A stretch of DNA of 38,574 nucleotides, from assembly GCA_018435055.1 (NCBI GenBank), contig JAHDOA010000044.1, positions 1 to 38,574 on the forward strand, in the 5' to 3' direction. A program made the position numbers and the translations under genes. Positions within the stretch are counted from its first letter, which is position 1. Each line of letters opens with the position of its first letter. The stretch is from Pelotomaculum sp. (GTDB lineage: Bacteria; Bacillota; Desulfotomaculia; Desulfotomaculales; Pelotomaculaceae). Shown here in pieces: positions 3,568-16,956 of this stretch. The notes beneath the pieces were generated by a model, which ran no database searches, was not told the origin of the DNA, and worked only from the letters and a program-made list of their open reading frames with translations.

Positions 3568-3702
3568 CTACACTTTGGTTTCCAGTGGTTTTCCAAATGG
3601 TTGTCTTGGAAGCCCAACAAATTCAACGGATGCCGCACCTGGCTTGTCTCTGTTGCAATTTCCGAGAACAATGTCTCCGGTTTTGTAACATGCCAGCATC
3701 AT
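3568..3702 (-). CDS. Small 44-residue protein, translationally coupled
   Basis: A short frame starts at an ATG that overlaps the stop codon of the upstream gene (ATGA at 3702-3699), immediately followed by a second ATG, and ends at TAG 3570-3568. The product begins [19 protein letters not shown] and continues [20 protein letters not shown]. It has two cysteines and no signal peptide or membrane segment. The four-base overlap is the usual arrangement for translational coupling, which is the main reason to believe it. I do not recognise the family. It would be the last gene of the integrase-side operon. A weak hairpin (3542-3555) follows it. Confidence 0.5.
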
Positions 3703-4535
3703 TTTTTCAGGATTGTTTCAATTTCCCTTTCGTAGCCGTAACGCTTGAAAAATTCCACCAAGGCAATCTCGAAAATGTCTCTCTGGGCAATGTTCTTCTC
3801 AGCACTGTAATCCCGAACCATCTGGTCAAGTTGGTTTGACATGTGCACAGACTTGGTGACAAAAACACCTGGAATACTGTAGCGTGGTAAACTGCCTGTG
3901 GAAAGCTGCTCTGCCACCCTTGCCAGCAACCCCTTGAGGGCAACTTCGTTTGATTTTAGGAACTGTAGCAGGGGTAGATAGCTCTGGATTGTAGCATCCT
4001 CCAATTCACATGGACTAGCAGTCACCACTTGTGAGCTTTCAGTCAATTTTTCTTCTGGTTCCTTCACATCCTGCCGTTTCCCTATGGCTATCACATTGTC
4101 ATTCACCTCTGGGGGTTCTTCATCATTACTTTTTCCTTCCATTATATAGTTGGCCACCTGTGAATCCCAGGTGTAACCCTTTGACTTCATATAAACTGCC
4201 AGATCCCTGTGACTCTCAAAGCCTACCCTGTTTGCTATTTCCTTGGCATCCATACCACCCTTAGCAAACAAAGCAAGGACTTCTCTAACCTTGTCGAGGG
4301 TAGTGGCATCTTCTGTCCTTGCATACCTACCAGAGTTCCTACTGCTGGTGAGCACATAGGTTCCCCCTAGTCTATCCCAGGAATACCCTTGTCTTCTCAT
4401 AAAAATGTCCATTGTTCTGTAGTTCTTGTAGCCTAATTCCAGGGCAATATCATTCCGTTGCCTTTTGGACTGCAATCCCTGAAGGATGTGCTTCACCTTT
4501 TCATCCTGGCTCATATCTAGTAAAGCCTGTTGCAT
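3699..4535 (-). CDS. Putative DNA-binding protein: two related HTH-like repeats plus a ribbon-helix-helix-like end
   Basis: This protein of 278 residues is not assigned to a named family. Residues about 10-62 and 80-132 are related copies: each has a short helix pair, a segment like IALELGYKNYRTMDIFMRR or IANRVGFESHRDLAVYMKS, and the ending GY(S/T)WD. The first half of each copy looks like a helix-turn-helix. After an acidic linker, residues about 225-270 (TKSVHMSNQLDQMV, then a helix and FEIALVEFFKRYGY) have the pattern of a ribbon-helix-helix domain. Together this suggests a sequence-specific DNA-binding protein, for example a partition, excision or regulatory factor of the element. It lies just downstream of a tyrosine recombinase gene. 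The start is an ATG preceded by AGGAGATGG. The domain reading is inference from the sequence pattern. Confidence 0.6.
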   Translation of the reverse strand: MQQALLDMSQDEKVKHILQGLQSKRQRNDIALELGYKNYRTMDIFMRRQGYSWDRLGGTYVLTSSRNSGRYARTEDATTLDKVREVLALFAKGGMDAKEIANRVGFESHRDLAVYMKSKGYTWDSQVANYIMEGKSNDEEPPEVNDNVIAIGKRQDVKEPEEKLTESSQVVTASPCELEDATIQSYLPLLQFLKSNEVALKGLLARVAEQLSTGSLPRYSIPGVFVTKSVHMSNQLDQMVRDYSAEKNIAQRDIFEIALVEFFKRYGYEREIETILKK

Positions 4536-4616
4536 GAAATTCCATCTCCTTTTGAAATATTGCTTTCAAGTCTAAAAAATGTCCCTCTCCAAACAAATTG
4601 GAGAAGGACGAAAATA

Positions 4617-5471
4617 CTAAAGGACGTTGACTGCATCTTCAAGTTGGGAAGTATCGGTGTGGGTGTAAACTGAGGTAACCTTGATATCGGAGTGCCCGAG
4701 CAATTTGCTAATATGAACAATGTTGATGTTCTTAGCTACCAGTTGACTGGCAAAGGCATGCCTAAAGGTGTGGGCAGTGACATTTTTCTTCAGATTTAGT
4801 TTCTGTCTTGTCTGCCGAATGGCTCGATCAACAGTCATCTTGGATACCCTTCCTGTCTTTTCAGTAGCGAAAAAGTGTTCTGAATTTACTCTCCAAGCAA
4901 CATAATCCAGAAGCAGGTCACGAAGCTTGCCGCAAATTGGTATTGTTCGGTCCTTGCGACCTTTACCATTTACCACCTTGATCACTTTCTTTTCTAAATT
5001 CACATCATCCACCTTTAGGTTGGTAATCTCTGAAATTCTAAGCCCCGTGTAATACATGGCCAGGACTATCACCCTGGCAAGATCATGATCCATGGCCCTA
5101 GCAAAATCCATGACTTCTTTTTCAGACAAATAGTCCCTTTCCTTCAAGGGAACCTTGATGGACTCAATTTCCGAGGCAATATCTTCCTTACACAGCTTCT
5201 TTTTGTAGGCATACTTGAGAAACATTTTGATGCTGATAGAGGCTCTTTTTCGGCTAGCTGGTTGGTACTTTCGTTCCTCCTTTAGCATCAACAGGTATTT
5301 TTCAATGTCTCGTATGGTAATGTCCTCAACAAAGGCTGGGCAATTGTATTCGGCCTCAAGCCACCTCAGGAAGGAATCGAGGTCAATGCTGTAGCCTTCA
5401 AGTGTTGCGGGACTTTTGTCGGTTGTAGTTAGATATTCCTTGTATTCTTCCAAAGAGCTGGATAGTAACAT
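4617..5471 (-). CDS. Tyrosine recombinase / integrase, XerC/D-like (first)
   Basis: A 284-residue protein of normal XerC/D size. The N-terminal SAM-like core-binding domain spans about residues 5-95 and the catalytic domain about 115-284. The catalytic set is complete: Arg145 in TGLRISE, Lys170 in NGKGRKDR, His234 and Arg237 in AHTFRHAF, His260 in LLGHSD, and the nucleophile Tyr269 in TSVYTH. Such enzymes cut and join att or dif-type sites without external energy. The gene is at the left part of the island, next to the flagellin junction and upstream of the DNA-binding protein at 3699, so it is a candidate for integrating or resolving the element. The ATG start is preceded by AAGGAGGGAAG. Its relation to the second recombinase at 15336 is distant. 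Confidence 0.9.
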   Translation of the reverse strand: MLLSSSLEEYKEYLTTTDKSPATLEGYSIDLDSFLRWLEAEYNCPAFVEDITIRDIEKYLLMLKEERKYQPASRKRASISIKMFLKYAYKKKLCKEDIASEIESIKVPLKERDYLSEKEVMDFARAMDHDLARVIVLAMYYTGLRISEITNLKVDDVNLEKKVIKVVNGKGRKDRTIPICGKLRDLLLDYVAWRVNSEHFFATEKTGRVSKMTVDRAIRQTRQKLNLKKNVTAHTFRHAFASQLVAKNINIVHISKLLGHSDIKVTSVYTHTDTSQLEDAVNVL

Positions 5472-5583
5472 CTGCTTCCCTCCTTGTCTAACATTCTAGT
5501 ACTATAAGAATAATATATGTTCCAAAATAGTGCATTGACGTATTTTCCCCCAACTGCAGTGGCTGAAAAAGCTTTATTCTGAG

Positions 5584-5637
5584 ATCCTCTTTAGGAGAGA
5601 AAAAAATTTACAAAAAATTTTCCTTTCCCTAGAGGAT
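5584..5637 (-). terminator. Imperfect inverted repeat between polymerase and integrase genes
   Basis: ATCCTCT (5584-5590) pairs with AGAGGAT (5631-5637), followed inward by a shorter AGG/CCT match around a very A/T-rich centre. It begins about 12 nt after the polymerase stop codon and could act as a weak terminator or processing site. Confidence 0.4.
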
Positions 5638-5648
5638 GTTTCAAAATG

Positions 5649-8033
5649 TCAGCTTCTCAGCCACAAATCGTGCCGATACTTCTGTTCCTTTTTCACCGCC
5701 CAGCTATCACCCACTGCAGCAGAGATTTCAATGGGTGTGCTGGTGATGATTTGTTGCCAGGCTTCGGCCATTGCTTCGAGCAATAGTTCCTTTACATGTT
5801 CTGCTTTGTCTGCAGGTGCCTCCAGAACAAGTTCATCGTGCAAGGTAATGATTAGGTACACATCTTCCCAACCTTTGACGACCAATTTGTGGTAGACTTT
5901 TGCCATAGCTAGCTTGATGATGTTTGCTCCTGTCCCCTGGTCAGGGGTGTTATAGAGTTCCGTCACTGCACCTACTTTGGCAACATAGGGCTTGCCTGAC
6001 TTGCGAGCTTCCTTTTGCTCCTTTGGAAACACTCTGACTCTTCCACAAAGAGCAGCTGTCCCTGGCCTCCATTCAAAGCAATAGCCTTTGGTGAAATTGT
6101 GTTGATGAAAAACCCCGAAACGATTCTCAAACTGGTACTGAGACTCCTGTTTCTGCCAACTTGCAACACCATCGTAAATCTGGAAGAATTTTTCCTTTGC
6201 TAGGTCCGCTTCATCTTGTGTCATGCGAACGCCGTAAGAATTCTCAGCATATTCCCTCAGACCGGCAGCACTCATGCCGTAGATGAGACCAAAATTAACA
6301 GCTTTGGCTGCCTGCCTCTCATCCCTGCCCACCTCTTCTATTGCCTTTCCTGTCAGGTTAGCAGCTGTGTAAGAATGAACGTCCAAGCCATCGTTGAAGG
6401 CTTTAAGAAGCGTCTTGTCCTCCGACAACTCGGCCATAATCGCCATTTCAATGGCGGAATAGTCACCAGAGATTAACTTTTCACCCTCACCTGGATTGAA
6501 AAGCCCACGAATATCTTCGTCATGAGAAACCTGCTGAAGGTTAGGATTTGAAGCAGAAAACCTCCCCACCCCAAGGGGATTCAACTGCCTTAAACTCGTG
6601 TGCAACCGATTTGTTTCTGAGTGGATTTTTCCTAGGTAACTCTCTAGTCCATCTATTCTTGATTTCAGTGAGCGGTACTCCCCAAGCCTTTGAATGAATT
6701 TCTTTAGCTGACTACCCTCAGGTAGTCTTCCCTCTACTCGATAGATCACCGACTTGTTGGAAACAACAGGAAAGACTTCCCGTTGTTGTGTCTCTTTATT
6801 GAAGAAATCAAATTGCGATCCATCCTGAGACAGCACCTTTTCCCGATCCCCAAACCACTGGAGACAAGCTTTCAAATCAACGTAGGAATTTAGGTTCAGC
6901 AATCCCGCTGTCTGCTTATTGCCCTTTTTGGGTGGTGGAACAAACCCGAGATCTTTTACTTCCGACTGAATCGCTTGTTCCAATAGCAAAAGTTTTTGTT
7001 TCTCCTGCTTTTGCAATCGCCTTGTTTCTGCTGCGTTAAAGGGAACACCCGCCCATTCTATTTCTGCTGTTGCAGGGAGACAGTCAAATTCGATCTGGGC
7101 AGTTTCTAGCACTTCGTTTTTATAGAGCAGGTTAGAAAGGATTTCAGCCAATGGTATAAGGATAGCCGCGTCTAAGGCTGCATAGCGGATCATTTCCTCC
7201 GATATTTCCTGCTCCCAATTATCCTTTTGATGACTCTTGTCTAGCAACACACCTAGGTGCCTATAGGCCAAATCTCGAAGCCTGTGTGTGGGGTAATACA
7301 CCTTAACCCGCTTTCCGTAAATCATTTTTGTATCTACCTCAAAGTAGATCTCCTGCTTGTTCAGGTCCACAAACATGGTTTTTTTGTCTACAGTTTCCTT
7401 GCAAATCCCATTTCGTTGGCACCAATCTTCCATCTGACTCTCAGGAATATAGTCACCCGCGGTGGCCAATTGACTAGCCAACATAGTATCGAAAAGATTC
7501 CTGGCGTTGACCCGTTTCTTCCATTGCTGCCTCAGCATCTTTTGTTCAAACACTCCGTTGTGAGTGATCACTTGAATGTTGGAGCTTTCCATAAGCTCCA
7601 CTAATCCTGGAAGAATCTCATCCTGGTTAAATTCTTTTATATCCAGCACGTAGACTATGGCAGAGGTGCCATTGACAGGTTCCAGACCGTTATCTTTTAC
7701 TAGCTGATTTCTTTGCTGGCCGCCATATCTTGGAATTGCTAGCTGAATGAGTCGTATCTCATCCAACCAAGGATCAAGGCCCGTGGTTTCAAAATCCAGG
7801 CCACATTTCTTCGCCCCCCTCACTTGCCATAGGGCTTGCTCCCACTCCTTGAAATCCGTAATCCTTTTGATTTCCATTTGGTCAAACCAGTCATTCCAGC
7901 CGGCACCATTCACCTGATTCGTTGGTAAGAGAACCGTATCTTTGTTTTCTGTTACGGGTTGTGGTGCAAAGTTCTGTGTATTTTTAACGATTTGCTCAAA
8001 CCATTTTCTTGTTTGTTCTTGTAAAAATGTCAT
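5649..8033 (-). CDS. Family A DNA polymerase with 3'-5' proofreading domain (element-encoded)
   Basis: At 794 residues it is shorter than cellular Pol I because it lacks the 5'-3' exonuclease domain. The DEDD proofreading exonuclease is complete: Exo I DFETTGLDP (80-88), Exo II THNGVFEQ (157-164), Asp182 and Exo III YAALDA (284-289). The polymerase palm has motif A GDYSAIE (Asp524), motif B RQAAKAVNFGLIYG (573-586) and motif C LHDELV (His732, Asp733, Glu734), so both activities should be intact. Polymerases of this build are found in phages and plasmids. The gene lies directly downstream of the primase-helicase and reads the same way, which points to a private replication module of the mobile element rather than a housekeeping enzyme. 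The ATG start follows AGGAGG. Confidence 0.93.
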   Translation of the reverse strand: MTFLQEQTRKWFEQIVKNTQNFAPQPVTENKDTVLLPTNQVNGAGWNDWFDQMEIKRITDFKEWEQALWQVRGAKKCGLDFETTGLDPWLDEIRLIQLAIPRYGGQQRNQLVKDNGLEPVNGTSAIVYVLDIKEFNQDEILPGLVELMESSNIQVITHNGVFEQKMLRQQWKKRVNARNLFDTMLASQLATAGDYIPESQMEDWCQRNGICKETVDKKTMFVDLNKQEIYFEVDTKMIYGKRVKVYYPTHRLRDLAYRHLGVLLDKSHQKDNWEQEISEEMIRYAALDAAILIPLAEILSNLLYKNEVLETAQIEFDCLPATAEIEWAGVPFNAAETRRLQKQEKQKLLLLEQAIQSEVKDLGFVPPPKKGNKQTAGLLNLNSYVDLKACLQWFGDREKVLSQDGSQFDFFNKETQQREVFPVVSNKSVIYRVEGRLPEGSQLKKFIQRLGEYRSLKSRIDGLESYLGKIHSETNRLHTSLRQLNPLGVGRFSASNPNLQQVSHDEDIRGLFNPGEGEKLISGDYSAIEMAIMAELSEDKTLLKAFNDGLDVHSYTAANLTGKAIEEVGRDERQAAKAVNFGLIYGMSAAGLREYAENSYGVRMTQDEADLAKEKFFQIYDGVASWQKQESQYQFENRFGVFHQHNFTKGYCFEWRPGTAALCGRVRVFPKEQKEARKSGKPYVAKVGAVTELYNTPDQGTGANIIKLAMAKVYHKLVVKGWEDVYLIITLHDELVLEAPADKAEHVKELLLEAMAEAWQQIITSTPIEISAAVGDSWAVKKEQKYRHDLWLRS

Positions 8034-8091
8034 CTTGATTCCTCCTATCTCTCTCTATTGGCTGAGTATTCTCTACGAAAACTAAAACGTA

Positions 8092-8126
8092 GGGTGAGAA
8101 AAACGGTAAAAATTTTTTTCTCACCC
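8092..8126 (-). terminator. Hairpin between primase-helicase and polymerase genes
   Basis: GGGTGAGAAAAA pairs with the opposite TTTTTTTCTCACCC arm, giving a stem of about 12 bp starting about 25 nt after the primase-helicase stop codon. The U-rich arm lies inside the stem rather than after it, so it may attenuate or stabilise the message instead of ending it. Confidence 0.5.
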
Positions 8127-8151
8127 TCAAGGATTGTCATTTTTCTATTCA

Positions 8152-10968
8152 TCAGCCACATTGTTCTCCCAAAGAATTAAGTCCTTGTGGCAGAAAAAAT
8201 TGGACTAAAGTGTGGGTGCCTTGTCTCTCTTTCGTGACTTCCCTTACTACCTCTATTTGCAGTTTGCCTGCAACCCTTGCTGCCTGAGAACGTTGTCGGA
8301 GCATACTTCCCAAGGTGTGGGTGCTACCTATGGAAAACTTAAGATCTTGGGTAACAGCTTCTCCGTTGACTGCAGACAAAACTTCATCCAGGAAATACTT
8401 TTTGTTTTCCACTAGGCAGCCTTTTTGCACCAGGGAGAGCAGTAAGTTGAGCAAGGTATCGTCCTGGATTTGGAATTCAGCCTGTGCTTGGCCCAACTGG
8501 TAAAGGGTTCGGTCGGTCACTTGATCACCCATTTCCTCACCAAGGCTATAGCGGAGATAGGCCCTAAGGAAGGTGGCAAAGTCAGCCATTCGAAAGTGCT
8601 CACTATTTTTGGGCCAACCATAATCTCCGAAATAGCTAACCATTTCATTCAGCATCTGGACCAAAACCGACAGGTAATTGTTCCTCTTAGCGGACAATAG
8701 CCGTTTTATTTTCCCTTCGGGGTAAGGCTTTTTTATTTGAGACAGTTCAATGACAAGTAGTCTGTCTGCTATGTCATCCCTTCTGAACCGAGGTGTTCTG
8801 CTGGTTATTGTAAACCAAGAAACGATGGGATAATTGGCCATTTGGTTAGTTGTGTAGAGAACCCGCTTAGGCACAGTACCACCAGTGGCTGCGGTAGCCA
8901 GTATATCCTCAATCTTCTTGACACTGCCGTCCAGGTTATCAATGCATACCCAAGGCTGGTTGGTGAGTACGGTTAAAAACTGGTCCAGATTATCTGTGTT
9001 GATGGTGGAAACATCTACACCAACTCCGAATAACAACCACAACCAATAGCGGGCTAAACTACTCTTGCCTGAATCTTTTTCTCCACGAAAGAGCAAATAA
9101 GGCCTTGTGGGTTGTCGTTCTCTGAAAAAGCCAGCCATTCTCCAAGCCATGATGGCTACCTTAGCACAGGCAGGTTCTAGCTTTGCATTGCGGCTGAAAT
9201 TAACCCCTGTCATGATTTTGGTAAACAGCTTTTTATCTTTTTCTGTTACCTGAACGTACTCCCAAGGTTGCCAACCTCGGTCCCGTACAAAAAAGATACC
9301 ATCTGTACCATTCGTTACAGTCTCTATGATTCTGCCATCTAATCGTAAAATTTCTCCATTGTATTGATCCAGATAGAGAAGGTTTTTAGTTTCATCATAA
9401 TAGGCAATCCGACGAGGCTCAATTTTTTCGCCTTTCTGGTAGGCATAGGAATAGAGTCTATATAAGGAATCTGAACCAAATTCACTTTTCTTCGATAGGC
9501 CAGTATACTGCGTAAACAGTGTTTCAAAATCAACTTCGCCAAAACCCAGCATCTTTCTTTCATTCTTGAAGAACCACCAGGCTTCTCCATCAGCTCCTTT
9601 GGAGCTGAAGAAATCTCCCTCTTTTTCGAAGGTATCTCGAATCTTTTCAAAGACATGGTTCTTAATTATTTCTTTAGGTGAGGCTGGCGGTTGGCTCATA
9701 GCTGCAATGATCCCATTAACTGCTGGTGCCAGGCTTTCTAGCCCCTTACCCAGGGGAGGAAGTCCTTTTTGCCGTTTCTTAACTTCCTTAGCTCGGGCTT
9801 TAGCAGCCTTTAGAAGCATGGTCTTGCCCTTACCGAATTTCTGGGCATACTCATCAGCAAGCATTTCACCTTGGCTGATTAGCTTTGCAACCACAGCCAT
9901 GAGGATCTCTTCCTTTATAGGGTTACTTTTGCTGGCTACTATTTCAGTGAATTTCTCCACGCCACCCTTGGTTGGCACCCACACAGGGCTGTCATAGATT
10001 TTCTTCTTAAGTCCTGCTATCAGGTCTTTTAGAGGAATATTTTCTTGTTTGCCGTGGTTGATGAGGTCATCTAGTCCTGTCTTGTCATCATCTTTTAATT
10101 TGGGCAGCGTAAAAATGCGTACTTCCTCCGCTCCCAGTCGGTAAAGTTGTTCTGCCAGTCTGCCGAAAGCTGGCCAACCTGAGTGATGTTGGTCAATATC
10201 GGAATCATACAGCAGGACAATTCTTTTCCCACTCCAGTCCCTATCTAAATCAACATTCAGTGCTAATTCATCACTAATACTCGAAGTGGTACCACCACCC
10301 AGTAACTTCTGAACACCAGTCGTTAATGTACCTTTATCTGTTCGCCAGTTCCAAATCCCTGAGAGTGACACAACCGGCAAACCTGCCTGGTAGCCAGAAA
10401 TGGCTTTCATCTCTCCTTCTGTCACCCATATCTCTGGCGAATCTTCGTAATCTAATCCCATGGGGATATAGAGTCTATTTTCCTGCCCTGCAGGTCTTAG
10501 GTATTTTCTTCTCTTGCCTGATTCAGGATCAGTCAATGGTTTATTGAGCCTGATTGTAAAGGTGTTGGGATCATTGGGGTACACAATCAGGATTCCACCA
10601 CTTTGGATATCGTTTCTCCCCAGCAGGGTATTCGTTTCTTCTTTGGTTACCGATCGAATTAACTTTCTAGCTATGAGTTCCTTAACATCTGGTTTCTCGA
10701 TATCTAGGGCATACTGACTTTCCAGTTGTATCTGATGTGCTGGGGTTAGTGACTCGAAGAGAACCTCTGATTCTGACATATTCGCATCCTGAGTTTCTGG
10801 CAAAATGTTATCAGAAGATGGGTCTTCTTCAGTATCAGGATTGATTTGAACATTGCTTAGATCTTGCTCTTGTGCAACAACATCATCGTTAGGTTGCTGA
10901 TCCTTTATCAGTTCCCACTGTTCTTCTAAATTAGCCTGTATTAATTTTTTCTTGGTTCCTGGTTTCAT
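8152..10968 (-). CDS. Primase-helicase: Toprim (DUF3854-like) plus AAA+/SF3-like ATPase
   Basis: A 938-residue multidomain replication protein. After a charged, probably disordered N-terminus (1-75), residues about 110-310 hold a Toprim domain of the DUF3854 type: WVTEGEMKA (182-189), LLYDSDID (252-259) and KTGLDDL (296-302) supply the acidic metal-binding residues. A linker of about 250 residues leads to an ATPase module with Walker A GEKDSGKSS (629-637), Walker B VCIDNLD (674-680) and a later arginine-rich segment SRTPRFRRDDIADRL typical of the sensor/arginine-finger region. Toprim-ATPase fusions prime and unwind DNA in phage and plasmid replication. It is followed by the element's own DNA polymerase. 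The ATG follows GGAGGGG. The primase activity is inferred from domain order and not shown by sequence alone. Confidence 0.8.
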   Translation of the reverse strand: MKPGTKKKLIQANLEEQWELIKDQQPNDDVVAQEQDLSNVQINPDTEEDPSSDNILPETQDANMSESEVLFESLTPAHQIQLESQYALDIEKPDVKELIARKLIRSVTKEETNTLLGRNDIQSGGILIVYPNDPNTFTIRLNKPLTDPESGKRRKYLRPAGQENRLYIPMGLDYEDSPEIWVTEGEMKAISGYQAGLPVVSLSGIWNWRTDKGTLTTGVQKLLGGGTTSSISDELALNVDLDRDWSGKRIVLLYDSDIDQHHSGWPAFGRLAEQLYRLGAEEVRIFTLPKLKDDDKTGLDDLINHGKQENIPLKDLIAGLKKKIYDSPVWVPTKGGVEKFTEIVASKSNPIKEEILMAVVAKLISQGEMLADEYAQKFGKGKTMLLKAAKARAKEVKKRQKGLPPLGKGLESLAPAVNGIIAAMSQPPASPKEIIKNHVFEKIRDTFEKEGDFFSSKGADGEAWWFFKNERKMLGFGEVDFETLFTQYTGLSKKSEFGSDSLYRLYSYAYQKGEKIEPRRIAYYDETKNLLYLDQYNGEILRLDGRIIETVTNGTDGIFFVRDRGWQPWEYVQVTEKDKKLFTKIMTGVNFSRNAKLEPACAKVAIMAWRMAGFFRERQPTRPYLLFRGEKDSGKSSLARYWLWLLFGVGVDVSTINTDNLDQFLTVLTNQPWVCIDNLDGSVKKIEDILATAATGGTVPKRVLYTTNQMANYPIVSWFTITSRTPRFRRDDIADRLLVIELSQIKKPYPEGKIKRLLSAKRNNYLSVLVQMLNEMVSYFGDYGWPKNSEHFRMADFATFLRAYLRYSLGEEMGDQVTDRTLYQLGQAQAEFQIQDDTLLNLLLSLVQKGCLVENKKYFLDEVLSAVNGEAVTQDLKFSIGSTHTLGSMLRQRSQAARVAGKLQIEVVREVTKERQGTHTLVQFFLPQGLNSLGEQCG

Positions 10969-11005
10969 CTTGTTAACCCCTCCAATGCTATTTTGAAGTA
11001 AATGC

Positions 11006-11035
11006 CCTGGTATGGGTTCTGATTCCCATACCAGG
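11006..11035 (-). promoter_or_regulatory. Leader hairpin upstream of the primase-helicase gene
   Basis: CCTGGTATGGG (11006-11016) pairs perfectly with CCCATACCAGG (11025-11035) around an 8-nt loop, about 40 nt upstream of the primase-helicase start. It lies between the 74-nt inverted repeat and the ribosome binding site, so it should be in the transcript leader. It could control translation or be an initiator-protein site. Confidence 0.5.
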
Positions 11036-11059
11036 CACTATGCAATTAAGAAAGAGCAG

Positions 11060-11144
11060 AAAAACAAAAAAGACAATGCAAAATTTACCCATCAAAACAG
11101 GCATACTTATCCCCTGTCTTTGATAGTTAAAATTTACATTGTCT
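11060..11144 (-). repeat. Large two-part inverted repeat followed by a T-rich run (terminator or replication structure)
   Basis: The outer arms AGACAATG...AAAATTTA pair with TAAAATTTACATTGTCT, and inside them ATCAAAACAGG pairs with CCTGTCTTTGAT. The whole spans 11071-11144. On minus it is followed by TTTTTTGTTTTT, so it can end transcription of the ribbon-helix-helix gene. Two nested stems of this length exceed what a terminator needs; a cruciform or single-strand origin is also possible. The rest of the 11145-11288 gap shows no gene. Confidence 0.6.
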
Positions 11145-11288
11145 TATAAATCCCTCTTGCAATATCTACCACTACGTGACGGCAAGATTGGGTTGGTTTT
11201 GTATTCAGTTTTCCTTCCAATAATATTCCTTTTATTTTCCAATGTCAACTATTATTTATCAATGACCCATTGGACAAAGAACCTTCCC

Positions 11289-11750
11289 TTAACCTTTTTG
11301 CGTGAAGTAATGCTTTAATGCCTGGTTAACCACCCAACTGAAGGATGGGATATATTTGGCCTCCTTTAGCCCCTTCATGATTTTTTGCAGATCCTTCTCC
11401 ACATAGATTGTTAGCTTCTGGTAGTCTTCATGAAAGTTGGTTGTTTTCTGCAGTGGTCCGATCTGTAGGTCTCTCCCATTTAACTGAAAGTTTTTCGTAA
11501 TTTGATCGTTTGAAATGGCCTGCTCCTGCTGTCGCGAACCAGTTGGTACCTCTGCATTTTCAGGTGTTACCTCATCTTCTTCGCATTCTATTTCCTCCAT
11601 TTCTAGTTCTTCTTGCTCCTGGTTTTTGTCCCTAGTGGACCAGTTAATACCCGTGGTTTTTTCATTACTAGCCGCTGGTCTATTAAAATCTCCTAGGTTC
11701 AGGTTTCTTTTACGTCTTACTGGCCATCCACTGTTATGAAATCCACTCAT
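11289..11750 (-). CDS. Ribbon-helix-helix protein, possible partition or autoregulatory protein
   Basis: This protein has 153 residues. The first 100 are polar and low-complexity, with an acidic stretch (EEELEMEEIECEEDE). The last 50 (KLTIYVEKDLQKIMKGLKEA, then SFSWVVNQALKHYF) fit a ribbon-helix-helix domain: one beta strand with alternating basic and polar residues, then two helices. Such domains are found in CopG, ParG/Omega-type partition proteins and antitoxins. It starts its own transcription unit, because a terminator (11848-11878) lies upstream and three TCGAC(A/G)T repeats lie just before its start. Those repeats are plausible operator or centromere-like sites for it. No ParA-type ATPase is next to it. 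The ATG is preceded by AAGGAGG. The exact family is unknown to me. Confidence 0.55.
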   Translation of the reverse strand: MSGFHNSGWPVRRKRNLNLGDFNRPAASNEKTTGINWSTRDKNQEQEELEMEEIECEEDEVTPENAEVPTGSRQQEQAISNDQITKNFQLNGRDLQIGPLQKTTNFHEDYQKLTIYVEKDLQKIMKGLKEAKYIPSFSWVVNQALKHYFTQKG

Positions 11751-11772
11751 TGTTTTACCTCCTTCATCGCTA

Positions 11773-11809
11773 TCGACATCTATGTTTACGTCGACGTAGT
11801 TGTCGACGT
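11773..11809 (-). promoter_or_regulatory. Three TCGAC(A/G)T repeats: candidate operator or iteron array
   Basis: TCGACAT at 11773-11779, TCGACGT at 11791-11797 and TCGACGT at 11803-11809 are spaced 18 and 12 nt apart. The second is part of the palindrome ACGTCGACGT (11788-11797). They lie 23-59 nt upstream of the ribbon-helix-helix gene, where its promoter must be, as expected for autoregulation or a partition site. No clear -35/-10 pair is claimed. Confidence 0.5.
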
Positions 11810-11847
11810 TAATATTTTGTTAGAACAAATCTATCTATATTGAAAGC

Positions 11848-11878
11848 AAAAAAAGATGGGCTTAGTACCAGTAAGCCC
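11848..11878 (-). terminator. Rho-independent terminator of the radC/DUF960 operon
   Basis: On minus, GGGCTTA pairs with TAAGCCC (11858-11878, 7-nt loop) and is followed by ATCTTTTTTT. It lies about 30 nt after the stop codon of the 48-residue membrane protein, so it closes that operon. Confidence 0.85.
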
Positions 11879-11906
11879 TAATTCACTTGTTGCCCTTTTC
11901 CTATTC

Positions 11907-12053
11907 CTAGAGCCAAAGCTTCCTAAAGACCCATTTCCTGAACACGACAGCAACCACTGCTCCAAATACCAAACCAGAAGCTATCTCTGTATCGGTCCAA
12001 ATTGCACAAATGATACCTACTATGGCACCACCAATTGCCCATTTGACTAGCAT
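11907..12053 (-). CDS. 48-residue small membrane protein
   Basis: The frame runs from ATG 12053-12051 to TAG 11909-11907. The start is preceded by AAAGGTGG at good distance. The product has two hydrophobic segments, roughly residues 5-19 (WAIGGAIVGIICAIW) and 24-38 (IASGLVFGAVVAVVF), separated by a short acidic turn and ending in a basic tail (RKWVFRKLWL). It should be a two-pass membrane protein with a cytoplasmic basic end. It is the last gene before a terminator in the radC/DUF960 cluster. The overall shape resembles small holin-like or inhibitory membrane peptides, but there is no direct evidence for such a role. Family unknown. Confidence 0.6.
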   Translation of the reverse strand: MLVKWAIGGAIVGIICAIWTDTEIASGLVFGAVVAVVFRKWVFRKLWL

Positions 12054-12083
12054 TTTTTCACCACCTTTCGCCCTTGGTTTAAC

Positions 12084-12392
12084 CTAGTACTCGCTGGCAA
12101 ATAGCAGGGTGCAATGGTCTCCATCGTCAATGGCATAAAGTTTCCCCTGGATCGGTACGTCCACCACAAAGTGCTGGATCTTTCTGTAGGGTGGTACCTC
12201 CTGACGATGAAGAATTCTTTGAATTTTTCTGCCATTGCTCGCTTCTCTTGTGTCACACTCGAAGATTTGCAGGTAGTCTAATTGGCATTCGCTATTCTTT
12301 AGCTGGTCAATTAAGGACCATAGAACCATCTGCAAATCTAATCCTACCTGTCCATTAACTTCTCTTGTGATATATCTCCTTCCGTCAAACAT
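12084..12392 (-). CDS. DUF960 family protein
   Basis: This protein has 102 residues from the preferred start. The pattern MFDGRRYITREV, then LQMVLWSLIDQL, LDYLQIFEC and RILHRQEVPPYRK, matches DUF960, a small family common in Firmicute phages, plasmids and integrative elements. Its function is unknown. I chose ATG 12392 because the sequence GGGGGTGA lies just upstream; a GTG three codons earlier sits inside that ribosome site and is unlikely. It follows radC by about 24 nt and precedes the 48-residue membrane protein by about 30 nt, so the three probably share one message. No catalytic motif is evident. Confidence 0.75.
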   Translation of the reverse strand: MFDGRRYITREVNGQVGLDLQMVLWSLIDQLKNSECQLDYLQIFECDTREASNGRKIQRILHRQEVPPYRKIQHFVVDVPIQGKLYAIDDGDHCTLLFASEY

Positions 12393-12415
12393 TGGTCTCA
12401 CCCCCTGTTAACCTT

Positions 12416-12877
12416 TTAGAACAACCCCTTCTCCTTTAGGCTGACGTATTTCCCATCAGAGCCAATGACTATATGATCCAGGACAGAAATGTCTAGCAGT
12501 TCTCCTGCTTCAGCCAGTCTTTTGGTTAGTTGAATGTCTTCTCTACTGGGTGTTGGATCACCACTGGGATGGTTGTGGCTAAGGATGACGGCAGCAGAAT
12601 TGGCCATGATCGCTATCTGGAATGTCTCCCTTGGGTGTACAAGACTGGAGTTCAAGGTGCCAATTGAAACTGTAGCAATACAAGATGGTTGATTTTTGGT
12701 ATCTAAACACAGGACGCAGAAGCGTTCCCGGTCTGATTCTTCCAGAAAGGATCTCATAATGAAAGCGGCATCCCCTGGGCTGCTGATCTTTCGTTGTTGG
12801 TAAAGGAAGCTGCTTTCTCTAACCATTTTTAAGCTAATGATGTCCACCCGTTTGGCCTGTTGTTTATTATCTGCCAT
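12416..12877 (-). CDS. radC: RadC-like JAB (MPN+) domain protein
   Basis: A 153-residue protein consisting almost only of the RadC/JAB domain; chromosomal RadC is about 220 residues with an N-terminal helix-hairpin-helix part that is missing here. The metal-binding JAMM signature is complete: SHNHPSGDPTPSREDI gives H-x-H-x7-S-x2-D, and a Glu follows upstream in the usual position range. Short RadC proteins of this sort are common on prophages and integrative elements. Despite the name, a direct DNA-repair role is not established. Its ATG overlaps the end of the preceding gene by 11 nt and has AGGAGG upstream, indicating coupled translation. Confidence 0.85.
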   Translation of the reverse strand: MADNKQQAKRVDIISLKMVRESSFLYQQRKISSPGDAAFIMRSFLEESDRERFCVLCLDTKNQPSCIATVSIGTLNSSLVHPRETFQIAIMANSAAVILSHNHPSGDPTPSREDIQLTKRLAEAGELLDISVLDHIVIGSDGKYVSLKEKGLF

Positions 12878-13286
12878 TGGTTATTTCCTCCTTATCGCTA
12901 GAAATGTGTCCTTTTAGCCATTCTTCAATTTCATCATCAAACTGTCCAACCTGGCTAAAGAAGGTTACTGCATAGTCATTGTTGTAAAGTATTAAGATTC
13001 GATAGATGGTTAATTCAGGTAACTCTATTAGGTCAACAAATTCTGGATAGGTTCCAAGCAATCCCTGGTCCCCTGGGTTTAGCCCTACTACTGAAAGATC
13101 TCTTAGGTTGTCACCTTTCTCCACCACAACTAGATATCCGAACAAATCTGGATTCCATTCTGCAAGGCCACCGTATGCCTCTACTGTGTTGTTGAATTCC
13201 TCCGCCAGTTGGTTTAGATAGTCATTTGGTAGTGCTTGTGCTAATCGTAGGCATTCAATGTCCAGCAGTGATTTGATTATCCTCAC
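12867..13286 (-). CDS. Unrecognised element protein, paralogue of the 16474 gene
   Basis: This acidic protein has 139 residues. It shares its layout and many positions with the product of 16474-16890: both begin MRII, then have LP(N/K)DYLN, a central GDN(L/V)(R/K)DLS(V/I)VGLN, GLLGT(Y/V)PE, and a final (L/V)I(L/V)YN(N/D). No catalytic motif is evident, and the many hydrophobic and acidic residues suggest a compact globular protein. Function unknown; similar orphan proteins could be modulators such as anti-defence or regulatory factors, but that is speculation. AAAGGAGG precedes the ATG. The group IIC intron ends only about 15 nt before this ribosome site, so its original promoter region has been interrupted. 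Confidence 0.6.
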   Translation of the reverse strand: MRIIKSLLDIECLRLAQALPNDYLNQLAEEFNNTVEAYGGLAEWNPDLFGYLVVVEKGDNLRDLSVVGLNPGDQGLLGTYPEFVDLIELPELTIYRILILYNNDYAVTFFSQVGQFDDEIEEWLKGHISSDKEEITNGR

Positions 13287-13310
13287 ATGGGTTCCTCCTT
13301 TATAATTAGG

Positions 13311-15213
13311 ATAGGGGGCGGTGATTAACCGCCGACCCTCCTACACCACCGTACGTACCGTTCGGTATACGGCGGTTCATCAAGATGAACGTACTACTGA
13401 GTACCTTTGCGACAGACTTGTGAGACCTATGTTGACAAGGTATTGGTTGGTAAGAGTTCGATTTAGGATTGGGCTGCTGGATATTCTCCAGTAGCCTTTT
13501 CTTGTATTTGCAAACTGTATTGCTAGGCCTTTATTTAGACCGAGTTTGATAAGGTTCTTGAATCGTGTTTGAACCTTTCGCCATTGTTTCCAAATACACA
13601 TCCGGAGTCTGCGTCTAATCCATTCATCAAGGGTTGCCGCAACTTTCTTCATATCTGCCGGGCTAAAATAATTAACCCAACCAACAATCTTGCTGGTCAG
13701 TGACTTTACTTTTTGCTCCGTACTTTTGCCATTGCTCCTTGAAAGGACTTCCCTAACCTTATCTTTGAATTTCATAATTGATTTCTCATGTACGCGTATA
13801 CCGATACCACCCTTGCGGTTATAGAAGGAGAAGCCTAGAAACTTACGCTTCCAAGGCCGATCTACAGCACTCTTTTTCTCATTTACCTTTAGCTTTAGTC
13901 TTACTTCAAGAAATTGAGTAATGCTTTTCATCAGTCGTTCCCCGGCTCTTTTGCTCCGAACATAGATGTTAGCATCATCGGCATAACGGCAGAATTTATG
14001 TCCTCTTCTCTCCAGTTCTTTGTCTAATTCATCTAGCATGATATTACTGAGCAGTGGGCTAAGAGGTCCACCTTGTGGAACGCCTTCTTCGCTATATGAA
14101 ACTACTCCATTTAGCATCACGCCTGATTTGAGATAGAGCCGAATTAATTTAAGGACTCGCTTGTCTTTTACTTTTCTGGCAACCAGATTCATTAGTTTAT
14201 CCTGATTTACAGTGTCAAAGTATTTGGCCAAGTCCGTATCTACCACCCATTTATACCCATCTTCAATGTGCCTTCGGGCTGCTTCAACTGCCTGTTTTGC
14301 ACTTCTACCAGGTCTAAATCCGAAGCTACTCTCTGAGAATTCTGGGTCAAATATCGGTGACAGCACCTGCGTTATAGCCTGCTGTATCATCCTATCTAGT
14401 GCTGTTGGTATACCCAACTGTCTTTTGCCCCCATCGGGCTTGTCTATTTCAACTCGCCTAACGGGTTGGGGAGTGTATCTCCCTTCCAGAATTTCCTGCC
14501 TGATGGCCTCTCCGTTTTGTTTAAGGAAGGGCAGAAGTTCATCTACCTTCATTCCGTCCACTCCGTGGCTGCCCCTATTGGATTTTACTCTCTTAAACGC
14601 ATTGTTTAGATTATTTCTATCCAGTATTTTCTCAAGCAGGTTACCGGCGCATTCATTTCCGTTGTTTCTTCCCTTCTTGGACGCCGCAGATATACTCGGC
14701 ACTCCCTGCATACTTCGGGGTTCCACCCCTGCCTTTGCAGGCCAGCCTTCTTTTGAAGTTTTCTGCTTTCTTTGTATATCCGTCGAGTACCTCAAAATTC
14801 TGAAACCTCCTGATGTTTGGCCCTTCCTCTTCTGTGTATACCCTGAAAAGTACTATGGCCTCTGCTGACTTCTGGCAGTTCAGCCTTACATTACTGCAAG
14901 GGTTACTGTGTCAAAGTTCATTTTCACAGCATATCCACCAGATCTCCCCGGGTAAGAACGACCGCTTTCATTCCGTGTACTTGCCACATCTACTGTATAA
15001 GCCTCGGGTAGTATTGGGCTTCGTTTTGTATTGCAAACTCGCCCGACTTAATTCAGCCTATATGTGGTTCGTGTTCCTCAAGCCGGAACTTTGCTTACAG
15101 CTTCTTTCAGATTCCGCCTCACGGCGGACACCCTTGCTGTTCGGCTAGTGGTTGCTACTACCAAGCCCCACAGCGGACTTTCACCGCCAAGCTGTCGCCC
15201 ATGCCGGGCACAC
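13311..15213 (-). mobile_element. Group IIC intron (about 1.9 kb) inserted behind a terminator
   Basis: On minus, the intron begins GTGTGCCCGGCATGGG, a typical bacterial group II 5' end, directly after a terminator hairpin and TTCTTTATT. Near the 3' end, domain V is clear at 13376-13345: ACCGCCGTA pairs perfectly with TACGGTGGT, with a GAAC tetraloop hairpin and a small bulge, and a CGC catalytic triad. A GGCGGT/ACCGCC stem at 13340-13314 is domain VI. The intron-encoded protein lies in domain IV and lacks an endonuclease domain. Insertion next to a terminator, CGC triad and no endonuclease are the hallmarks of group IIC introns. The 5' end is firm; the 3' end (CCCCTAT at 13311) could be off by a few bases. 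Confidence 0.88.
13380..14795 (-). CDS. ltrA: Group II intron reverse transcriptase / maturase (LtrA-like)
   Basis: The intron-encoded protein, up to 471 residues. The reverse transcriptase domain spans about 50-330: RGSHGVDGM at 75-82, the first catalytic Asp in VVDTDLAKYFD (186/188), GVPQGGPLSPLLSN (238-251) and the active-site YADD at 271-274. The maturase domain X follows, and the C-terminus ends in RKGYWRISSSP and LTSLSQRY, as in class C proteins. There is no HNH endonuclease. The stop codon lies just before intron domain V, as usual. The protein helps the RNA splice and copies it into new sites. The exact start is uncertain, because the first 45 residues are poorly conserved in such proteins. 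All catalytic residues are present, so the intron may be active. Confidence 0.93.
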   Translation of the reverse strand: MRYSTDIQRKQKTSKEGWPAKAGVEPRSMQGVPSISAASKKGRNNGNECAGNLLEKILDRNNLNNAFKRVKSNRGSHGVDGMKVDELLPFLKQNGEAIRQEILEGRYTPQPVRRVEIDKPDGGKRQLGIPTALDRMIQQAITQVLSPIFDPEFSESSFGFRPGRSAKQAVEAARRHIEDGYKWVVDTDLAKYFDTVNQDKLMNLVARKVKDKRVLKLIRLYLKSGVMLNGVVSYSEEGVPQGGPLSPLLSNIMLDELDKELERRGHKFCRYADDANIYVRSKRAGERLMKSITQFLEVRLKLKVNEKKSAVDRPWKRKFLGFSFYNRKGGIGIRVHEKSIMKFKDKVREVLSRSNGKSTEQKVKSLTSKIVGWVNYFSPADMKKVAATLDEWIRRRLRMCIWKQWRKVQTRFKNLIKLGLNKGLAIQFANTRKGYWRISSSPILNRTLTNQYLVNIGLTSLSQRYSVVRSS

Positions 15214-15221
15214 AATAAAGA

Positions 15222-15251
15222 AGGCATTCCCGCTAAGTGGTAGGAATGCCT
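15222..15251 (-). terminator. Terminator of the second integrase gene, target of the group IIC intron
   Basis: AGGCATTCC pairs with GGAATGCCT around a 12-nt loop. On minus it is followed by TTCTTTATT and then the first base of the intron at 15213. It lies about 85 nt after the integrase stop codon. The intron has moved into the end of the T-rich tract, the standard group IIC target. Confidence 0.85.
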
Positions 15252-15335
15252 AAATAGGATTATCCAGCAGTCTGGATATCATAATAATATTAAATGTCTA
15301 TTTTTCTATTGGAAACGGATTTGGTGAGCGGTTGA

Positions 15336-16250
15336 TCAAAGCAGATTGACTGCAGCAAGCTTATCCTGTCTACTGGTAGAAATATAGAACTTGGCAGTGG
15401 TCTCAACCCCAGCGTGACCAGCTAGTTTGGCAACGGTGGTTAGGGGTACTCCCTTCTGTACTAAGCGGGAGCAAAAGGTATGTCTGAATTGGTGTGGGTG
15501 AAGATGGATATTGAGGTCTTTAGCTAGTTTTTCCAGCAGGGTATTTACGGCATCTCTGTGCATTTTCTTAGCACGTTGGCTGACCAGCAGGTATTCACTA
15601 TCGGAGAATTTATTTTCTGCCCTGTCTTTTTTCAGGTATTCTTTCGTTATTTCTATCAGTGATTCTTTGATTGGCACCTCCCTTAGTTTCTCTCCTTTAC
15701 CCCTGACGGTCAGGGTGTTTAGCAGAAAATCTATGTCTCTGACGCGGATGTTCACCAGCTCGCTGACTCTGCAGCCTGTGTAAAGCAGCAGATGGATGAT
15801 GAGGCGGTTTCTTAATCCCATTCTGACAGGATTGTTAGCTAGGGCCAACAGAGCGTTGACCTGCTGCTCGTTTAAGACGGACACTTCCCTTTCGCTGCCT
15901 GCAGCTACCTTTACCCGATCTTTCTTCGGTTCCACGATTCTTAGGTTGTCTGGCAGGATGCCCTGCTCCTTTAGGTACTGGGTGAAGCAACTAAGGCTGT
16001 TAATAGCTTTGTTGACGGTGGCTGGTTGGAAGCCCTGCTTTACCATGTAATTGCGGAAGGCAGTCACATCTTGGCGGGTAAGATTTGATAGTGGTTTGGG
16101 ATCAGTTTGAGTCACGTGGGTTAGGAAATTGCTGACGTCACTTACGTAGGACTGGACGGTTCTGGCGGCTTTCCCGTCGTCGTAAAGGTATTGACAGTAA
16201 GCGGTGATGATGTTTTGTTGCTCCTGGGGTAAGTTGACAATAGTTTCCAT
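15336..16250 (-). CDS. Tyrosine recombinase / integrase, XerD-like (second)
   Basis: A 304-residue phage-type integrase with a core-binding domain (about 20-110) and a catalytic domain (about 125-304). Counted from an upstream TTG ten codons earlier, the catalytic residues are Arg171 (TGCRVSE), Lys195 (RGKGEK), His263 and Arg266 (HPHQFRHTF), His289 (LAGHAG) and Tyr299 (KFYI). The set is complete. I chose ATG 16250 because AAGGAGATG lies five bases upstream. It is only distantly similar to the integrase at 4617, so the island may be composite or may use two recombinases for integration and resolution. A 16-nt direct repeat lies 170-210 nt upstream of its start and could be an arm-type binding site. 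Its terminator is occupied by the group IIC intron. Confidence 0.9.
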   Translation of the reverse strand: METIVNLPQEQQNIITAYCQYLYDDGKAARTVQSYVSDVSNFLTHVTQTDPKPLSNLTRQDVTAFRNYMVKQGFQPATVNKAINSLSCFTQYLKEQGILPDNLRIVEPKKDRVKVAAGSEREVSVLNEQQVNALLALANNPVRMGLRNRLIIHLLLYTGCRVSELVNIRVRDIDFLLNTLTVRGKGEKLREVPIKESLIEITKEYLKKDRAENKFSDSEYLLVSQRAKKMHRDAVNTLLEKLAKDLNIHLHPHQFRHTFCSRLVQKGVPLTTVAKLAGHAGVETTAKFYISTSRQDKLAAVNLL

Positions 16251-16283
16251 CGTGACATCTCCTTCATTTTTTCGGTGCAAAGC

Positions 16284-16312
16284 AAAAAGGCCAGTCTGGT
16301 TATTTCAGACTG
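16284..16312 (-). terminator. Terminator-like hairpin before the second integrase
   Basis: CAGTCTG (16292-16298) pairs with CAGACTG (16306-16312). On minus it is followed by GCCTTTTTGCTTT. It would end transcription of the 16474 gene, or attenuate the integrase message, whose start is about 35 nt further on. Confidence 0.6.
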
Positions 16313-16321
16313 ACTTGACTA

Positions 16322-16351
16322 GCTGCCTAATCTTAATTAGGTAGCGTTTTT
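16322..16351 (+). terminator. Second hairpin, with T tract on the plus strand
   Basis: GCTGCCTAAT pairs with ATTAGGTAGC around CTTA (16322-16345) and is followed by GTTTTTAG on plus. With the adjacent hairpin at 16284-16312 it makes a back-to-back pair that could block transcription from either side. No plus-strand gene is visible to its left. Confidence 0.5.
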
Positions 16352-16420
16352 AGGTTATGGATACTGCTGATGAGTTGTTATGAATCATGGAGTCCAACAA
16401 CGCCAATTGTTGGTACATAA

Positions 16421-16458
16421 CTTTTGCAGCAAGTTTATCAATCTTTTGCAGCTAGTTT
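16421..16458. repeat. 16-nt direct repeat next to the second integrase
   Basis: CTTTTGCAGCAAGTTT (16421-16436) recurs as CTTTTGCAGCTAGTTT (16443-16458), with one mismatch and a period of 22 nt, about two helix turns. Such spacing would place two protein molecules on the same DNA face. It lies between the integrase and the gene at 16474 and is a candidate integrase arm site or operator. Confidence 0.45.
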
Positions 16459-16473
16459 TGGCAGATTTAATTA

Positions 16474-16890
16474 TCAGCAATGCCAGCCTGTAGCCTCCAT
16501 CTCTTCAGTCAGGAATTCCTCCACTTCTTCGCCAAATGCTCCCGATTCCAGAAAGAACGTAGGAACATAGGAGTCATTGTAGACAATTAGCACCTTCCAA
16601 ATTGAACTGCCGTCTAAGTCAATTCGTTCCACGGTTTCAGGTACAGTTCCCAGCAAGCCTCTTTCTGCACTGTTTAGGCCAACTATGCTTAGATCCTTTA
16701 CGTTGTCACCTGGTTCCAGGACAATGATTGGGCCACATTGTTCCAGGGTGAATTCTTCTTCGGTTTCACCGTCACAATTAAACTCCATCAGGTCTTTAAA
16801 GTGTTGGCGAATTAGGTTGAGGTAGTCCTTTGGTAGGGTGTTGGTCTTCTCCAGTAGAGTGATGTCCGCTAGGGTGTTGATGATTCGCAT
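16474..16890 (-). CDS. Unrecognised element protein, paralogue of the 12867 gene
   Basis: This acidic protein has 138 residues. It begins MRIINTLADI and shares LPKDYLN, GDNVKDLSIVGLN, GLLGTVPE and LIVYND with the product of 12867-13286 over its full length, so the two are clear paralogues. It has no signal peptide, membrane segment or known motif. I chose ATG 16890 over one 12 codons upstream because AAAGGGG lies just before it and the paralogue starts at the same point. It is the rightmost gene that clearly belongs to the island. Two copies on one element suggest related but non-identical partners. Function unknown. Confidence 0.6.
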   Translation of the reverse strand: MRIINTLADITLLEKTNTLPKDYLNLIRQHFKDLMEFNCDGETEEEFTLEQCGPIIVLEPGDNVKDLSIVGLNSAERGLLGTVPETVERIDLDGSSIWKVLIVYNDSYVPTFFLESGAFGEEVEEFLTEEMEATGWHC

Positions 16891-16918
16891 GTTATTTCCC
16901 CTTTCTTGAAATAGAAAT

Positions 16919-16956
16919 AGCCCCACTGGTCATCTTGGTGATGCTCCAGTGGGGCT
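16919..16956. terminator. Perfect 11-bp hairpin in the leader of the 16474 gene
   Basis: AGCCCCACTGG (16919-16929) pairs with CCAGTGGGGCT (16946-16956). On plus it is followed by TTTTGTGC; on minus it lies about 30 nt upstream of the 16474 start. It may be a terminator facing out of the island or an attenuator in the leader. Confidence 0.55.

Follow-up and report, generated by a model that had tools for sequence, protein, structure and literature searches.

Phage 21 and e14 integrate within icd and regenerate their target gene, the nearly identical 3' end that they provide restoring the same enzyme. Flagellin-remodeling prophages (FRphi) carry a whole flagellin gene while the host gene is repressed by the RNA-guided protein TldR, a case that has been called the first known prophage-encoded flagellin (PMC13418256). 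Here we describe a mobile element of approximately 17.5 kb, situated within a flagellin gene of Pelotomaculum sp. (assembly GCA_018435055.1) and extending from w3383 to w20909, where w denotes a position in the analysed stretch of 38,574 nucleotides (hereafter the window; contig C10, JAHDOA010000044.1, of a 70-contig draft genome). The window genes, introns and att parts for which coordinates are given below are on the minus strand. We consider it highly probable, from sequence comparisons, that the element integrated at the motif TCGTCAG in the only flagellin gene of its host, swapping the body of that gene for one that it carried. As with phage 21 and e14, integration is inside a gene and the target is reconstituted in frame, both attachment sites (attL and attR) lying in one gene of which the element supplies the lost part, but here almost the whole exposed protein would be exchanged for a divergent one. 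As with FRphi, a temperate element would provide its host with a new flagellin in place of the old in the filament; unlike in FRphi, the replacement would be made by the integration event itself, with only the body as cargo. No Pfam match to TldR (TnpB/OrfB-like) was detected among the element proteins scanned and, as regards a guide RNA, the window scan recovered no Rfam family besides those of the introns. Body exchange of this kind was not found in a search of the open-access literature for prophages that integrate into genes for flagellins, S-layer proteins or pilins.

Both ends of the element consist of flagellin sequence meeting at the TCGTCAG core. The distal end lies in an intact flagellin gene, flag2, where the promoter and codons 1 to 12 meet the attL core (w20903..20909, codons 12 to 14); the retained 5' end, comprising the host flagellin leader and first codons, occupies w20910..21021. 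flag2 is complete and stands behind fliW and flgL/flgK genes, and its body (w18113..20909) continues in frame from this start and contains Flagellin_N/C domains. At the proximal end, past the genes for the tyrosine recombinase Int1 and a partner protein, the attR core (w3383..3389) adjoins a flagellin body without promoter or start, flag1 (w989..3382), whose reading frame opens abruptly, with homology to flag2 from w3393. Comparison of attL with attR shows unrelated sequence to the left of the core (12/60 identical) and homologous sequence from the core on (45/70). The two cores are 17,520 bp apart, flag2 body included. GC content is 41% in the flag2 body, mostly 41-47% across the element and 53-60% in the flanking flagellar genes. 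A search for the promoter and first codons of flag1 found nothing similar anywhere in the assembly besides those of flag2, and no second copy of the flagellin start exists elsewhere in the genome. The initial annotation had placed the element at 3568-16956. No flanking direct repeats were found near those ends, the true distal end being within flag2, and the most distinctive property of the element, the proposed flagellin body swap, fell outside those coordinates; the flagellin target and cargo had been missed, as had both introns described below, the reverse transcriptase of one of them, and the RadC and DUF960 genes.

In a congener, genome G005, the flagellar genes stand in the same order and include a single flagellin. 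The leader and start of that flagellin match flag2 (from w21021 on), its body (residues 292-805) is 74% identical to flag1 (71-74% when flag1 is compared with the G005 body), and its middle is unrelated to that of flag2. Since the G005 gene joins a flag2-like start to a flag1-type body, the old gene of the window would have consisted of the flag1 body behind the flag2 start, and the insertion would be everything from one core to the other (17,520 bp), with the flag2 body as part of it. A single flagellin with a flag1-type body is what would be expected of the uninserted state; flag1 would then be the displaced original and the flag2 body cargo brought by the element. Tandem flagellins are common in bacteria, and flag1 and flag2 have conserved ends in common, which would also suit a history in which the element entered between two pre-existing flagellins and the second of these lost its start by deletion, with no cargo and no swap. 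The single gene of G005 argues against this, as do the truncation of a flagellin at the same bases, with the same attR half-site, in genome G118 and the same pattern in pilin and S-layer-like genes at their own conserved starts (see below), and we regard a tandem origin as very unlikely. The 3' end of flag1 also contains a group I intron (w669..975; RF00028, 77 bits; sequence-based), which cuts off the last ~15 codons, the last exon lying at about 610-664; the G005 flagellin has no intron.

In the mechanism that we propose, tyrosine recombination at TCGTCAG would insert the 17.5-kb element inside codons 12-16 of the flagellin. Because attP would lie just ahead of the promoterless flagellin body carried by the element, integration would place that body in frame behind the promoter and first codons of the host gene, giving the complete flag2, and would leave the old body, flag1, start-less and silent behind Int1 and the partner gene. 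Excision would restore the old flagellin gene. In the predicted attP, TCGTCAG stands between the arm, which ends in GACGTTGCTTT, and TTAAATACCAACAGC of flag2; in the predicted attB, it is preceded by the flag2 start and followed by TTGAGTACCAATAG of flag1. A repeat-rich segment of ~300 bp separates the partner gene from the core and would be the arm region (w3390..3698); clustered TTCCAAA/GTTTCC motifs reach their highest density in the window there. Int1 (w4617..5471; PF00589) has homologues adjoining the partner gene in nearly every locus that has this module, and the two proteins are likely to be the integration and excision machinery. The partner (w3699..4535; family alignment A4) is a putative DNA-binding protein of 278 aa with weak double helix-turn-helix (HTH) similarity and a low-confidence fold model that gave weak AraC-like HTH matches only. 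The likely benefit would be an altered filament surface against flagellum-binding phages or predators.

The same layout occurs at flagellin, pilin and S-layer-like genes elsewhere. Five loci, including the window, have complete attL/attR pairs, in which 10-16 of 60 positions are identical to the left of the core and 39-68 of 70 from the core on. The closest parallel is G118, from a different family, in which fliW and an intact flagellin are followed by an accessory gene, an Int2 homologue (48% identical; Int2 is the second recombinase of the window element), a PrimPol-helicase, an Int1 homologue (48%), a partner homologue (42%) and a 5'-less flagellin body. Downstream of that body, the same accessory gene appears again, with a second partner gene and another flagellin fragment, as expected if two successive integrations had taken place. 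The pilin version, in G475, spans 17.9 kb and comprises an intact prepilin, RadC, a DUF927 helicase, an integrase, the partner and a 5'-less pilin. In the complete chromosome of G407, a 41.8-kb prophage separates an intact surface gene from a 5'-less body that is 88% identical to the body of the intact gene, and G102 has the same layout around a prophage of ~59.6 kb. The final 15 bases at the window attR, GTTGCTTTTCGTCAG, are identical to those of the G118 attR. The arm DNA of the window has no convincing similarity to the G118 and G102 arms and only marginal similarity to the arm in G108; the piece common to the window and the other arms is the core half-site.

To survey the module formed by Int1 and its partner, searches covered the order, a phylum sample (398 genomes) and IMG/VR. 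The partner gene was found in 19 of the 398 genomes and on eight IMG/VR contigs, and, across Bacillota, both siphovirus prophages and small elements have the module. Counting only loci with at least 1 kb of readable downstream sequence (n = 24), a 5'-truncated surface gene follows the module, in the same direction, in 17. These genes are of flagellin type in the window and G118 (twice), of pilin type in G108 and G475, and of S-layer-like/Ig-like type in contig C24 of the Pelotomaculum genome, G102 (three times), G085, G407, G452, G194, G465 and the loci L184, L185 and L186. The S-layer-like cases share one break core, GTGCTATTA, in the codons for SAIN, except for G085, which has a different junction. 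The IMG/VR prophages L184 and L185 have the same phage end (97% identity across 1,958 bp) and split exactly at GTGCTATTA into different surface bodies, which indicates that the boundary is set by recombination there. In many such prophages, the interval from the partner gene to the att core holds a gene for an Rpn/PD-(D/E)XK-like protein with DUF4351 at its C-terminus (L033:5495-6391, L145:12357-13400, L258:721-1719, and L256 downstream of the partner gene).

We think it probable, with less assurance than for the window itself, that the tyrosine integrase and its partner constitute a widespread module of Bacillota phages and elements that enters the conserved 5' part of flagellin, type IV pilin and S-layer-like genes and swaps the exposed body of each for one carried by the phage or element, the old bodies forming a silent, recoverable archive and lysogeny acting as an antigen switch. 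Conserved starts of surface genes would let related modules use such targets, because those bases encode parts that the proteins keep. If this is correct, mobile DNA rewrites the bacterial surface through the integration reaction itself, which would swap the exposed part of a filament or coat protein and retain the promoter and start of the host gene. Start-less flagellin, pilin and S-layer genes beside integrases would then have an explanation, and further surface variants would be expected in hidden archives. A simple test would be whether lysogens resist phages that attach to flagella, pili or S-layers. As a potential tool, the integrase pair could also exchange protein bodies at fixed in-frame sites.

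A rival explanation is a shufflon-like system of phase variation, in which inversion or deletion by a recombinase would connect different surface bodies to a single expressed start, as a trait of the host and not as a by-product of integration. An array in G102 (loci L145, L144, L147, L146 and L172; G102:C1 4.45-4.64 Mb) speaks for it: around one expressed gene lie, on both strands, at least four S-layer-like bodies that lack a start and have the same core, together with an orphan 5' half that breaks off at the core, and inversions there could switch bodies. The two displaced bodies in G118 fit it as well. However, most of the genomes sampled lack the module, complete prophages and replicating elements carry it at their end, and the single-insertion cases (window, G407 and G475) resemble plain integrations. 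Arrays also fit repeated tandem integrations, yet both readings could hold, and we judge phase variation unlikely as the overall explanation. An isolated remnant of arm plus core, followed by a short broken frame, lies 1.3 Mb from the G102 array (L158, G102:C1:3198625).

Several observations weigh against integration with body exchange, for the window or for the module in general. The uninserted state is backed by one genome, G005, which belongs to another species and is ~72-77% identical at the DNA level. The view of the flag2 body as cargo draws on the layout and on the parallels; across the loci, cargo status is strongest for the bodies of G118 and the window (owing to the congener) and weakest for those of G102. 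Given the shortness of the core and the homology of the two bodies past it, the crossover point is fixed only to within the bases common to both. The intact gene of G102 is preceded by an orphan 5' half, so that the element there may have carried a whole replacement gene. Finally, seven of the 24 module loci have no 5'-less surface gene in the sequence read, among them L260 (G469:C34), in which an Rpn-like gene comes after the module, and then a flagellin that is intact, with fliD.

The Pelotomaculum genome itself contains, on contig C24, a siphovirus prophage with TerL and tail genes that ends with a 33%-identical partner gene and its integrase. This prophage raises the possibility that the window element is a phage satellite, similar to Staphylococcus aureus pathogenicity islands (SaPI) and phage-inducible chromosomal islands (PICI), whose helpers would be siphoviruses with the same integration module. 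The size of 17-18 kb, the genes running one way, the primase-helicase with an integrase and the lack of structural genes are those of a PICI. Genes for packaging, capsid-size control or derepression were not recognised, and Int1 is only 39.5% identical to its C24 counterpart; we hold the satellite interpretation to be tentative and less likely than not.

All sizeable genes from 3.7 to 18 kb are on the minus strand and read, in order, HEPN-like protein, 150-aa protein, Int2, group II intron with reverse transcriptase, 139-aa protein, RadC, DUF960, 153-aa protein, Toprim-helicase, PolA, Int1 and the 278-aa partner. This agrees with the single gene direction and two tyrosine recombinases recorded in the initial annotation, Int1 and Int2 (XerD-like; w15336..16280; PF00589, E = 1e-40) both matching PF00589. 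The G118 homologue of Int2 occupies the same relative place in its flagellin element. No terminase, capsid or tail genes were matched among the element proteins scanned, which distinguishes the element from a prophage, and no relaxase or type IV secretion system (T4SS) genes were detected among the proteins scanned in 3.4-21 kb, which distinguishes it from an integrative and conjugative element, a coupling protein occurring only near a distant relative of the polymerase-helicase pair; here too the initial annotation was borne out. Its description of two ribbon-helix-helix-like proteins was not, the 278-aa partner having only the HTH similarity described above and the 153-aa protein (w11289..11750) a ribbon-helix-helix-like C-terminus by eye with no credible family match.

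The family A DNA polymerase (w5649..8033; PF00476, E = 6e-64, with the PF01612 3'-5' exonuclease) has intact polymerase and exonuclease catalytic motifs, invariant in the alignment, and no match to a 5'-3' exonuclease domain, and is thus the proofreading PolA that had been predicted. The Toprim primase/helicase (938 aa; w8152..10968; PF12965, E = 3e-8, and homologues) has a DUF3854/Toprim-like N-terminus and a C-terminal half with a Walker-A-like motif, GEKDSGKS, and weak helicase similarity (25-29%); these features support the earlier reading as a Toprim/AAA+ fusion in part, as Pfam gave no AAA match. The fold prediction is poor beyond residue 402. The remaining genes are RadC/JAB (w12416..12877; PF04002, E = 6e-44), with homologues in the G475 pilin element (54%) and in G012 (63%), and DUF960 (w12084..12401; PF06124, E = 3e-20), a family also borne by islands of the staphylococcal cassette chromosome (SCC) type (PMC10581047).

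SCC-type islands carry PolA-SSB primases (CcPol-MP; SSB, single-stranded DNA-binding protein) and a Cch helicase (PMC10061031, PMC10581047). The window element and SCC/SCCmec islands both have a family A polymerase, a helicase, DUF960 and a site-specific recombinase, and the islands are thought to replicate after excision; the replication genes (Toprim-helicase, PolA, RadC and DUF960) resemble those of SCC/SaPI-type elements. In contrast to SCC, the recombinases here are tyrosine recombinases rather than the large serine recombinase Ccr, the insertion is in a flagellin rather than at the end of rlmH, Toprim is fused to the helicase, the polymerase is a proofreading one, and no gene for an SSB-like OB-fold protein lies between polymerase and helicase, which are ~118 bp apart (8033 to 8152). 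The plasmid replication protein CyRepA likewise fuses a DUF3854 Toprim-like domain to a helicase and drives plasmid replication (PMC10079941), but it is cyanobacterial, has another helicase domain and has no linked PolA. Judging from these families (DUF3854 in plasmid replication, PolA with helicase on SCC-like islands), the probable role of the Toprim-helicase and PolA is to replicate the circle after excision or to make entering single strands double-stranded.

Pipolins, which have tRNA targets, are also integrated elements with their own DNA polymerase and a tyrosine recombinase. Their polymerase, piPolB, is of family B and primer-independent (PMC10061031), unlike the family A enzyme here, and the replication proteins are unrelated. 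The initial annotation had viewed the element as a self-replicating, pipolin-like plasmid element built on PolA, which would make the insertion in flagellin incidental. It is integrated and has its own replication genes, and the Toprim-helicase and PolA are kept as a pair elsewhere; the analogy with pipolins is weak, however, and PolA with helicase and recombinase on Bacillota elements was already known (PMC10061031). The sister elements of G118 and G475, with the same swap layout, have a PrimPol-helicase and a DUF927 helicase, respectively, and no PolA match, so the defining trait is the surface-gene target rather than PolA, and we find the pipolin-like reading rather improbable. The combination of PolA, helicase and recombinase is of a known kind; body swap by integration would be the new part.

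Related Toprim-helicase/PolA pairs, for which the initial annotation had suggested a search, were found in other Desulfotomaculales genomes, with 35-44% identity in PolA. Desulfovirgula thermocuniculi (L047:12180-14684 with L035) has a T4SS coupling protein at a distance of ~14 kb from a triad of PolA, a DinG-like helicase and a Toprim-DUF927 helicase; this is probably a conjugative element. Searches of phage and plasmid databases with the Toprim-helicase gave no phage match and only partial, weak plasmid matches, and single-sequence searches gave no close viral relatives of it or of PolA. An alignment-based viral search recovered many distant Toprim phages, the best being L055, an IMG/VR phage with a terminase and a DUF3854-DUF927-HTH_56 (Cch-like) protein that appears to link SCC-type Cch helicases to phage Toprim-helicases. 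A relative of the pair near a T4SS coupling protein and the same helicase type in a phage suggest that the pair is common to several kinds of element. PolA relatives on cyanobacterial plasmids were considered as nearer kin and rejected, being ~30% identical and not closer.

The 150-aa (w16474..16926) and 139-aa (w12867..13286) proteins are paralogues (41% identity), the former without a Pfam match. Between Int2 and the 139-aa gene, a group II intron (w13330..15212, ends approximate; RF02001, RF01998) encodes a reverse transcriptase (w13380-14795; RVT_1 and GIIM). Int2 is followed by a terminator-like hairpin, and the intron comes immediately after this, a position typical of class C introns. 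The gene beside the flag2 body encodes a HEPN_Cthe2314-like accessory protein (w17265..18011; PF18730, E = 2e-11). Next to it, an exact 23-bp direct repeat, GCAGGAATCCTGTTCGCCGAGTA, is present at w17044-17066 and w17237-17259, and the ~170 bp between its copies holds GGTGCCAGG-type sequences.

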